NCBI GenBank assembly: GCA_017534115.1
Contig: JAFWDD010000029.1
Span: forward strand, 1 to 64,000
Source of the DNA: Bacillota bacterium
GTDB lineage: Bacteria; Bacillota; Clostridia; Lachnospirales; Anaerotignaceae
Length of the DNA stretch: 64,000 nt
Reading direction: 5' to 3'
In this document: positions 15,166 to 63,279 of the stretch, piece after piece
Position numbering within the stretch: position 1 is the stretch's first letter
How the letters are laid out: each line of letters opens with the position of its first letter
The notes under the pieces: model-generated
The model's database searches: none
The model's input: only the letters and a program-made list of their open reading frames with translations
What the model was told of the DNA's origin: nothing
Made by a program: the position numbers and the translations under genes

Positions 15166-15194
15166 TTGCAATAAAAATGATTATTTTGTATAAT
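15166..15194 (+). promoter_or_regulatory. Promoter of the putative nuclease gene
   Basis: TTGCAA (15166-15171), 17-base spacer, TATAAT (15189-15194), 57 bases before the start codon. Confidence 0.7.
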
Positions 15195-15218
15195 TTATAT
15201 ATCTATAACAAACCATTA

Positions 15219-15237
15219 CTATATAATCATTATATAG
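15219..15237 (+). promoter_or_regulatory. Perfect 19-bp palindrome before the nuclease gene
   Basis: CTATATAAT, a central C, ATTATATAG: nine perfect pairs. It sits in the leader between promoter and ribosome binding site, 14 bases before the ATG. A position like this suits a repressor site or an mRNA hairpin that masks translation; which one is not known. Confidence 0.5.
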
Positions 15238-15251
15238 AAAGGAAAAACATC

Positions 15252-16328
15252 ATGGATAAATCAAAACTTAATTCTGCAATAAAATCATTTACAAAGAATA
15301 TAAAAACAAATGCAAAATATTATGAAGATGCTTGGTTAGAACGTGTAGAAAGAAAAGCCTATTACCAGTCTTTTACGAAAGATAAACTCTTATCTATGAC
15401 TGAGGATGAGTTCTTTGAATACATAAGCAGATTATGGTCTATGTTGATTTGGGGCAACAAAAAATATATTGTAGATAAACTTATAGCGGATAATGGTTTT
15501 GAAAATCTTAAAAATCAGTTAGCAAAAGTTATTTTTAGCACTTTACCACTAGAACAACGTTGGAATACGTTTTTAAAAAGTGTAAAAGGCATGGGGCCAG
15601 CTACAATAAGCGAACTTCTTATGTATTCCAATCCTGATGAATACGTAATCTTTAACAAAACAACCATCAACTGTTTTAACTATCTCAATATACCTGATAT
15701 GCCAAAATATAACTATCAGTATACTGGGAAAAAATATTTAGAAGTTTGTTCAATTGCCAAAGAAATATCTAATAGTCTTAAAACTACAAGTATAAAAGAT
15801 TATGACCTTTTGGCCGTTGACTATTTCCTGTGGGACGAAATTTTGCCTCTCGCAGAAAGGAAAACATCTGTTGATAAAATATCTGTATCCACTAATCCAA
15901 AAACAGAAATTGATTCTAAATCACTACATGACGAAATAAAGGAAAAATTAGTTGCAATAGGCGAATTGCTTGGATTTGAAAGCCGTTCTGAAGTTAAAAT
16001 CACAACTGGTGCTGTTGTTGATGCTGTTTGGGAAGCCAAAATAGGTAATATGGGAAAAGCTATTTATGTGTTTGAAGTACAGTCAAAAGGTTCTATTGAC
16101 AGCTTAATTTTAAATCTTAGAAAAGCTCAAAGCAATCCTGCTGTTCAAGCCGTTGTTGCCGTTGCAGATGAAAAACAACTCGCAAAAATAAAGAAAGAAA
16201 GCGCAGGTGTTATAGACGAAAAAGCTCTTAGAACATGGGAATCCGATGATGTTCTCGCTGTTTATGACTCATTAGTAAGGGCTCATGAATCAATTAATAA
16301 TTTAGCTCTTGTTCCAGAAAGTTTTTAA
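15252..16328 (+). CDS. Putative HhH plus PD-(D/E)XK nuclease
   Basis: A 358-residue cytoplasmic protein I cannot place in a named family. Residues 108-124 (LKSVKGMGPATISELLM) look like a helix-hairpin-helix DNA-binding element, followed by YSNPDEYVIFNKTTIN. The C-terminal part has TGAVVDAVW (Asp257) and, 18 residues on, FEVQSKGS (Glu275, Gln277, Lys279), which fits the D...ExQ/K core of PD-(D/E)XK nucleases, here inside an alternating strand/helix region. Together these suggest DNA binding and cleavage, so repair or defence. It is monocistronic, AT-rich, and lacks a methylase or other partner next door. The ATG at 15252 with GAAAGG upstream is preferred over an earlier in-frame ATG at 15177 that overlaps the promoter. 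Confidence 0.75.
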   Translation: MDKSKLNSAIKSFTKNIKTNAKYYEDAWLERVERKAYYQSFTKDKLLSMTEDEFFEYISRLWSMLIWGNKKYIVDKLIADNGFENLKNQLAKVIFSTLPLEQRWNTFLKSVKGMGPATISELLMYSNPDEYVIFNKTTINCFNYLNIPDMPKYNYQYTGKKYLEVCSIAKEISNSLKTTSIKDYDLLAVDYFLWDEILPLAERKTSVDKISVSTNPKTEIDSKSLHDEIKEKLVAIGELLGFESRSEVKITTGAVVDAVWEAKIGNMGKAIYVFEVQSKGSIDSLILNLRKAQSNPAVQAVVAVADEKQLAKIKKESAGVIDEKALRTWESDDVLAVYDSLVRAHESINNLALVPESF

Positions 16329-24471: not shown

Positions 24472-24728
24472 AACTGAAAACTAATATGAGGATTAGTAGA
24501 AAAGAACTATGTTCACAGAGATAGGATTGCCGCTGAGAGATCCTTACAAAAGCTTTTCGAACCTGCCTCTTGGAAATATTAAGAATAGATTTCCAGATCC
24601 GATTTCTGATAAATTTCGGCGTATGACTGCGTTAAGGTTTAAAGAGGGTATAGTATAAAATATGCCAATTAAGGTGGTACCGCCGGTTTCCGGTCCTTTT
24701 TGAGGATGCGGGAGCCTTTTTTATTTTA
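24472..24728 (+). promoter_or_regulatory. T-box riboswitch controlling proS
   Basis: A leader of about 280 bases. The conserved T-box AAGGTGGTACCGCC lies at 24671-24684; its UGGU-type bulge pairs with the uncharged tRNA 3' end. Downstream, GGTACCGC can pair with GCGGGAGCC ahead of a T run (to 24724), the terminator that the antiterminator competes with. In stem I, GAACCTG at 24559-24565 has the layout of a specifier loop with codon CCT (24562-24564) for proline, matching the gene behind it. The specifier choice is inferred from spacing and context. Confidence 0.88.
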
Positions 24729-62916: not shown

Positions 62917-62921
62917 TTTTA

Positions 62922-63279
62922 TGGAGATGAGGAGAATCGAACTCCTGTCCGAAAACCCATCCGCAAGATTTTCTCCCATCACAGTTGATTATTTAAAATT
63001 CCCTACGTTCACGCAAACCAACATGCTTGAATTTCAGTAGCTTCATGTTTCTTCCTGCATGGCAAAGCTTACACACAGGAGTTCCCCGCAAGGTCGATAC
63101 CCGACTCTTCTGCTGCGGGAGACAGAAGGCGGATAAGCAGCTTTAAGCTTAAGCTGCTAAAGCGTAATTGTAATCTTTGTCGATTATTTTTAAAAAATGT
63201 TCCGGCTTTTTAATGCAGTTACCGGCCTGCAGATGGCTTATCTGTACTTCCGAATCCCCGTCGAAACCATTGCATCCCC
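62922..63279 (-). ncRNA. ssrA: Transfer-messenger RNA (tmRNA)
   Basis: 358 bases. The 5' end GGGGATG pairs with CATCTCC at the 3' end to form the tRNA-like acceptor, followed by the conserved GGTTTCGACGGGG at the 5' side and GAGTTCGATTCTC in the T-arm. The tag-reading frame ends ...DKDYNYALAA with stop TAA at 63149-63151; the exact resume codon is not certain. CCA is not encoded. It lies seven bases after smpB, so both partners of ribosome rescue come from one locus. Confidence 0.96.

Follow-up and report, generated by a model that had tools for sequence, protein, structure and literature searches.

Mrr couples a DNA-binding domain to a PD-(D/E)XK nuclease domain that has Gln in its active site. 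Type IV (modification-dependent) restriction enzymes recognize altered DNA through reader folds, and those named in passages of PMC11037411 are SRA, EVE, YTH and winged helix, while the available part of PMC8565348 describes complementary islands of BREX and type IV systems in which BrxU is a precedent for an add-on enzyme. In the Ogg2 glycosylases, according to sections of PMC5069365, the catalytic pair of MjaOgg is Lys129 and Asp147, 18 residues apart, His133 and Trp198 sandwich the base, and 8-oxoguanine is distinguished from guanine through a C-terminal Lys. In the accessible portions of the open-access literature, we noticed neither a fusion of an Ogg2-type domain with a PD-(D/E)XK domain nor a type IV enzyme that has an Ogg2-type reader. 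Here we describe a gene that encodes a predicted fusion of this kind, and we regard its product as a type IV-like candidate defence nuclease that would read a modified or distorted base, a reading whose chances we put at about even.

The gene lies at 15252..16328 on the forward strand of the window, the whole 64-kb stretch of DNA analysed, and encodes 358 amino acids with an Ogg2-like fold and a PD-(D/E)XK nuclease domain, as delimited from the ORF, its relatives, their alignment and dN/dS. The longest form of the mechanically called ORF opens at 15177; we placed the start at the ATG of 15252 because the Shine-Dalgarno-like AGAAAGG precedes it and the resulting N-terminus agrees with the MNxxKL of the relatives. 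The sequence-only reading had been correct about this ORF and its landmarks, GMGPATISELL (residues 113-123), D257 and E275-V-Q277-S-K279, and also in calling the gene AT-rich and single: its GC content is 32.4% against 40.2% for the window, a value as low being found in only 6 of 630 sampled stretches of the same length, and there is one copy in the window's genome (1.86 Mb, 95% complete). The regulated promoter that had been assigned to the gene is only suggestive. A promoter-like TTGCAA-17-TATAAT occurs upstream (15166..15194, forward strand, hexamer match), and a near-perfect palindrome (15216..15240, an inverted repeat whose 12-nt arms are 92% complementary) sits between this site and the start codon as a possible operator candidate, but the number of promoter-like sites in the region, 10 against 7.7 +/- 2.3 in shuffles, is not above expectation. 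Elsewhere in the window, the Rfam search located a T-box leader at 24477-24701 (forward strand) and a tmRNA at 62919-63279 (reverse strand).

The claim that the protein matches no named family was upheld, as it is named by none of the models in Pfam, NCBIfam or PADLOC. Pfam returned for the window protein only a 14-bit match to ATP-synt_ab, below the cut-off, and this weak match, seen in 17 of 34 members, was taken as chance; NCBIfam had no model for the window protein, and in PADLOC 2.0.0 no model matched it at E <= 1, nor L041, L050, L051 or L054 at E <= 0.01. PHROGs gave three weak matches, of which the best, at E 0.0061, is a family without an assigned function, a PDB sequence search with the single window protein gave no match, and HsdR, HsdM and HsdS domains were absent from the 21 families to which any of the 34 members had a match at E <= 1. 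The family is coherent and widely spread, without a name. Relatives are encoded at 45 distinct loci in the scan of genome contigs, mostly in Clostridia and also in Spirochaetes, Coriobacteriales, Gastranaerophilales, Delta- and Gammaproteobacteria, with a short piece in Lentisphaerae, and their identity to the window protein is 76-79% in 20 of the 33 aligned relatives and 43-72% in the remainder. It is rare and patchy, and reaches archaea: the gene was found in 4 of 299 genomes of the phylum and in 2 of 60 related genomes, the window's own being counted in both, and members occur in 4 of 72,556 plasmid records, three of them archaeal. The second count had initially been three and became two when L048 was dropped as a false match, its frame being a Mfd-like helicase by eye. 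Two genomes hold multiple copies, placed on different contigs (L004 with L005 and the partial L045; L007 with L024). A viral origin is unsupported, since no tblastn match was obtained in 50,697 phage records and 157 pattern matches in viral contigs yielded no confirmed relative. Foldseek against BFVD gave four matches at E <= 0.001, and its best 50 rows, in which the whole-chain TMq is at most 0.27, include named nucleases and an Mrr-like protein.

The alignment used for conservation held 39 sequences, the window protein and 38 relatives. Left out of it were L003 (flanks look the same as those of L002), the partial copies L029, L032-L035 and L042-L046, the copy found as L047 and the split L052; L054 and L055 also lay outside this set and were used only in a wider alignment of 10 rows. 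L027, with an in-frame stop, was retained among the 39 and omitted from alignment A1 and from the dN/dS pairs, from which L050, L051 and L053 were omitted as well. Nine residues, N69, G115, E121, N135, H226, D257, W260, E275 and G280, are invariant in 39/39 sequences. Pairwise comparison of 35 sequences left 14 pairs with dS of 0.1-1.2, whose dN/dS is 0.03-0.08, and both domains are under purifying selection, the nuclease half (0.00-0.03) being more constrained than the N-terminal half (0.02-0.09). The copy of Brucepastera parasyntrophica (L027 8001-9083) is probably broken in its genome because of an early in-frame stop. The nuclease half, otherwise highly conserved, differs in L008 and L022 (for example VGGS in place of SKGS in L008), a C-terminal divergence that possibly arose by recombination. 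In the tree, two copies from Spirochaetes and one from Coriobacteriales diverge basally to the main clostridial group and fall inside L053, another copy from the window's phylum, which is the pattern expected of horizontal transfer; the details of this tree are unsure because several branches are long.

AlphaFold2, run with 34 sequences, predicted two domains connected by a low-confidence linker (residues 205-222) at a mean pLDDT of 84 and a pTM of 0.56, the latter leaving the arrangement of the domains unsure. The N-terminal domain (residues 4-199; 15261..15848, forward strand; AlphaFold2 and VIA-align) has an all-helical Ogg2-type glycosylase fold. In VIA-align it superposed on MjaOgg 3KNT with Z 10.5 and an rmsd of 4.0 over 168 aligned residues (target length 207) and on SsOgg with Z 9.0, and the three best rows of a second AlphaFold model, headed by L041, which is 43% identical to the window protein, were all Ogg2 (Tm1821, Z 10.7; MjaOgg, Z 10.2 and 10.1), a Z of about 10 being not decisive for a helical domain. 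Foldseek against the PDB likewise ranked 3KNT first (E 6e-3), with nothing at E <= 0.001. The kinship to Ogg2 in sequence is weak, and the case for Ogg2 rests on the predicted fold: the Pfam OGG model PF21790 matched 10 of 34 members (best E 2.4e-4), the window protein not among them, HMMER against the Ogg structures gave E 0.28, and hhalign against an Ogg2 gene gave probabilities of 1.6% and 19% in two alignments. The PF21790 search had zero matches in the window's genome, but also zero in 14 control genomes. The helix-hairpin-helix (HhH) element GMGPATISELL (15588..15620, forward strand; HMMER alignment to 9o01/9o02) is present as had been proposed, not as a lone hairpin but as part of a complete Ogg2-type fold in the model and its VIA-align superpositions.

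The Ogg stretch GLGMKEASHFLRNVGREDVAIIN aligned without a gap with residues 113-135 of the window protein in HMMER. Within the printed stretch, the two PDB chains 9o01 and 9o02 are identical except for two positions, K/S and N/D, and these differences are read as catalytic-residue mutants. The counterparts in the window protein are A117 at the catalytic Lys, N135 (15654..15656, forward strand) at the catalytic Asp and E121 at the base-stacking His133. Position 117 is Ala in 34/39 and Ser in 5/39 sequences, and N135 and E121 are kept in 10/10 rows of the wider alignment. In hhalign, A117 stood opposite the Lys in both alignments, and N135 stood opposite the Asp with a one-residue gap in one and was not so aligned in the other. 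Because the positions of the catalytic Lys and Asp hold Ala/Ser and Asn, the glycosylase half looks inactive and, joined to a nuclease, is a candidate for a base-flipping reader. Judging by spacing, the wedge Arg84-Phe85 of MjaOgg may correspond to K/R71-Y/F72 of the family. The discriminating C-terminal Lys of Ogg2 is without a counterpart because the chain runs on into the nuclease, and 8-oxoguanine is for this reason disfavoured as the target.

The C-terminal domain (residues 219-349; 15906..16298, forward strand; AlphaFold2 and VIA-align) has a PD-(D/E)XK core composed of helix 225-239, strands 243-251, 254-264 and 268-276, helix 282-293 and strand 298-305. It superposed in VIA-align on AF1548 (Z 9.2), PaqCI (8.6) and EndoMS (8.4), and also on BspD6I, BamHI, FokI, MspJI (6.7) and AspBHI (6.6); the C-terminus of the L041-headed model again matched PD-(D/E)XK folds, among them EndoMS with Z 7.9. 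The separate nuclease domain suspected from the sequence was thus recovered, with its alpha-beta-beta-beta-alpha-beta order, in two models. Its proposed core of D257...E275-V-Q277-x-K279 held in most of its parts. D257, the predicted metal-binding Asp (16020..16022, forward strand), and E275, which opens the predicted second active-site segment E275-V276-Q277 (16074..16082, forward strand), are each conserved in 39/39 sequences and in 10/10 of the wider alignment, whereas K279 is Lys in only 33/39, so that the conserved motif is D...E-x-Q. A Lys two residues after the second acid is absent from the 39 sequences, where this position is Gln in 37 and His in 2. Gln variants at the Lys position of PD-(D/E)XK enzymes are known in the superfamily.

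The gene neighbourhoods point to defence, as a survey across genomes proposed with the sequence-only reading showed for many relatives. Among the 33 of 44 loci with at least 2.5 kb of upstream sequence, 19 have restriction-modification genes on the strand of the gene in the 6 kb upstream of it, 17 of them identified by seed search and two (L036 and L037) as type III Mod-Res pairs by Pfam. The seed search matched in 18 loci in all, the remaining match, at L026, lying downstream, and the gap to the restriction genes is only 12-96 bp in nine loci (L002, L004, L005, L006, L010, L014, L022, L027 and L041). One BLAST cluster, which holds Pfam-confirmed N6-adenine methylases, occurs at 19 of the 45 loci L001-L045, at 18 of them upstream on the same strand. 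Beside the gene, Pfam recognized N6_Mtase, Methylase_S, HSDR_N_2 fusions and one complete HsdR, and the neighbouring systems differ, with a type I HsdR beside L002 and IIG-like systems beside L010 and L040. Among the matches listed, the 69 near upstream ORFs include Methylase_S 13 times, N6_Mtase 9 times and ResIII 6 times, and the 81 near downstream ORFs ResIII 4 times and N6_Mtase once. The 37 genomes searched contain 62 N6_Mtase matches at E <= 1e-10 in about 94 Mb, and about 0.45 strong N6_Mtase matches would be expected by chance over all loci, a calculation that overstates the significance because several loci are closely related and so do not count independently.

Other defence genes accompany further members. 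At L056 the order is BrxC, an Eco57I/MmeI-type methylase (PglX-like), PglZ, BrxL, the family gene, an AAA protein and a McrBC component, and at L057 HsdR, HsdM, HsdS and an EVE protein (24.0 bits, cut-off 23) directly precede a distant family member. On the archaeal plasmids, genes near the relatives encode an N-6 DNA methylase, a DEAD/DEAH helicase, or a DNA methyltransferase together with a helicase, and the cluster of L017 comprises GmrSD_N, encoded on the opposite strand, along with a Schlafen-type helicase, a NUDIX protein and a 253-aa protein. This last protein, directly upstream of the gene (L017 7075-7833), had no match in Pfam (0.001) or PADLOC (0.01). The PADLOC scan of neighbours, which covered the downstream side, gave SIR2-pAgo, MADS, AriA and mREase_IV among the matches listed, as single models and not complete systems. 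A SIR2-pAgo protein of 1047 aa is encoded directly downstream at L002 (8973-12116) and L020 (5787-8930), and also at L003.

The description of the gene as stand-alone is true of the window's genome and of several others but not of the 19 loci where it follows restriction-modification genes. By eye, the copies of the window, of a Monoglobus plasmid and of others stand alone between unrelated genes, and the DNA upstream of the orphan L007 looks like the end portion of the specificity gene found ahead of the family in L014 and L022, as if copies leave restriction operons. The window's genome has zero matches to PF02384 and to PF00145 (PF01555 only below the cut-off), so that, within its 95% completeness, the gene would need no type I/IIG or C5 methylase system; the genomes of L007/L024 and of L044 also gave no PF02384 match. 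One Dam-like methylase is encoded on another contig of the window's genome, and a 428-aa ORF that overlaps it may be its restriction partner (both at L062 156-2301, reverse strand).

A damaged-purine fold apparently emptied of its chemistry, an intact nuclease and the defence islands together make a sensor and cutter of altered DNA the simplest reading. We infer that the single chain would work like a type IV restriction enzyme, in which the N-terminal Ogg2-type domain would bind DNA and flip out a non-standard or distorted base. The base would be held and not excised, as the Lys and Asp for cutting the glycosidic bond are missing, and the C-terminal PD-(D/E)XK domain would then cut the DNA nearby; host DNA would escape because it is without the base that is read. 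The gene would be a mobile accessory placed after type I, type IIG-like, type III and BREX systems, where its product would intercept invaders that carry DNA alterations to evade them, and the protein may also work alone, as in the window's genome. A fuller version makes the reader a retired 8-oxoguanine glycosylase that recognizes modified purines, for example the 7-deazaguanine of phages, and with its own nuclease serves Bacteria and Archaea as a plug-in behind N6-adenine restriction or BREX against evading phages; taken as a whole, this version is tentative and somewhat doubtful.

Two points count against a plain type IV reading and hence bring in rivals. Passages of PMC11037411 report that 87% of winged-helix type IV fusions are without a methylase gene within three genes, and as methylase genes are far commoner beside the present family, the family may depend on those systems. 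Its protein would then assist the N6-adenine restriction systems next to it as an accessory factor, sensing distortions or breaks and nicking or degrading DNA that a type I, IIG-like, type III or BREX machine has already attacked, so that phage DNA is beyond repair. The position directly behind several kinds of restriction genes, with the short gaps in nine loci and the upstream same-strand order in 17 of 18 seed-match loci, agrees with this, as does the stronger constraint on the nuclease half than on the sensor half, but the lack of PF02384 in the genomes of the window, L007/L024 and L044 and the several copies between unrelated genes make such a dependence unlikely. The second point is that an HhH protein lacking the Asp can stay active, Sis-HhH-GPD working through a Glu instead according to part of PMC11754123. 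The family might accordingly be a still-active glycosylase that uses another residue, with E121 as the candidate, and whose nuclease cuts the abasic site, and base-excision restriction enzymes of this sort do exist (passages of PMC10273834). E121 and N135 are as invariant as such a role would ask, yet the Glu of Sis-HhH-GPD is by spacing at the Lys position (E134 and S152, 18 apart), which here is Ala/Ser, E121 aligns with the base-stacking His133 and with no catalytic residue, and the D172N variant of Pae-AGOG had no detectable activity in the available text of PMC9638937; we consider retained glycosylase activity quite improbable.

The sequence-only reading had left the choice between a repair and a defence nuclease. 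Of these two candidate roles, defence fits better. A host repair nuclease that nicks lesions or mismatches in the manner of EndoMS/NucS, and that occurs in defence islands only by coincidence, would explain the superposition on EndoMS in both models, the use of an Ogg2 fold that recognizes damaged bases and the NUDIX gene near L017 (by Pfam) and L024 (by eye); the patchy spread in related genomes and in the phylum, the multiple copies in two genomes, the four plasmids and the strong link to restriction genes render it very unlikely. An ordinary type II enzyme, with an unmodified recognition sequence and a partner methylase that it requires, is hardly credible, for although the core superposes on BamHI, FokI and PaqCI and methylase genes are nearby in many loci, copies beside the differing systems of L002, L010 and L040 are still 76-78% identical to the window protein, and the window's genome has no PF02384 or PF00145 methylase, its Dam-like one being encoded on another contig, where it has its own overlapping ORF.

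If the type IV-like reading is true, a glycosylase fold with its shape kept and its chemistry lost would be a further reader solution, derived from a switched-off repair enzyme. The family recurs behind four kinds of methylation-based defence and crosses phyla and domains, so that one protein could show their backup against phages with altered DNA. The protein is small and single-chain, and it would also be a tool if the base read is one that no present enzyme reads.

Compared with the Ogg2 glycosylases (MjaOgg 3KNT/3FHF, SsOgg 3FHG and Tm1821 3N0U), the family has the same predicted whole-domain fold, the HhH element and the catalytic positions 18 apart, and it differs in having Ala/Ser and Asn at the Lys and Asp and Glu at the base-stacking His133, and in a sequence match that is not significant. 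An Ogg fold recruited beside defence genes was also seen at L063 (399-3584, reverse strand), where an Ogg2-family gene lies between a TGT-like ORF, whose start looks TIR-like by eye, and ORFs of QueC and TIR type. This defence-like cluster brings to mind the QueC/TGT set of type IV CBASS, of which OGG is a member; unlike the present family, the L063 protein keeps the Lys and Asp and is a 232-aa ORF without a nuclease domain. The nuclease domain superposes on AF1548 (1Y88) and shares its PD-(D/E)XK core with EndoMS/NucS, but the N-terminal domain of EndoMS/NucS differs from that of the family, which is patchy and partly on plasmids. The reader of Mrr is a winged helix, unlike the Ogg2 fold of the family. 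With the type IV enzymes (MspJI, AspBHI, the EVE-HNH enzyme VcaM4I, the winged-helix fusions and BrxU/GmrSD), the family shares the predicted layout of a reader plus a nuclease, a nuclease core that superposes on those of MspJI and AspBHI, and a place in defence islands, including one next to BREX, and it stands far more often beside methylase genes than the winged-helix fusions described in passages of PMC11037411.
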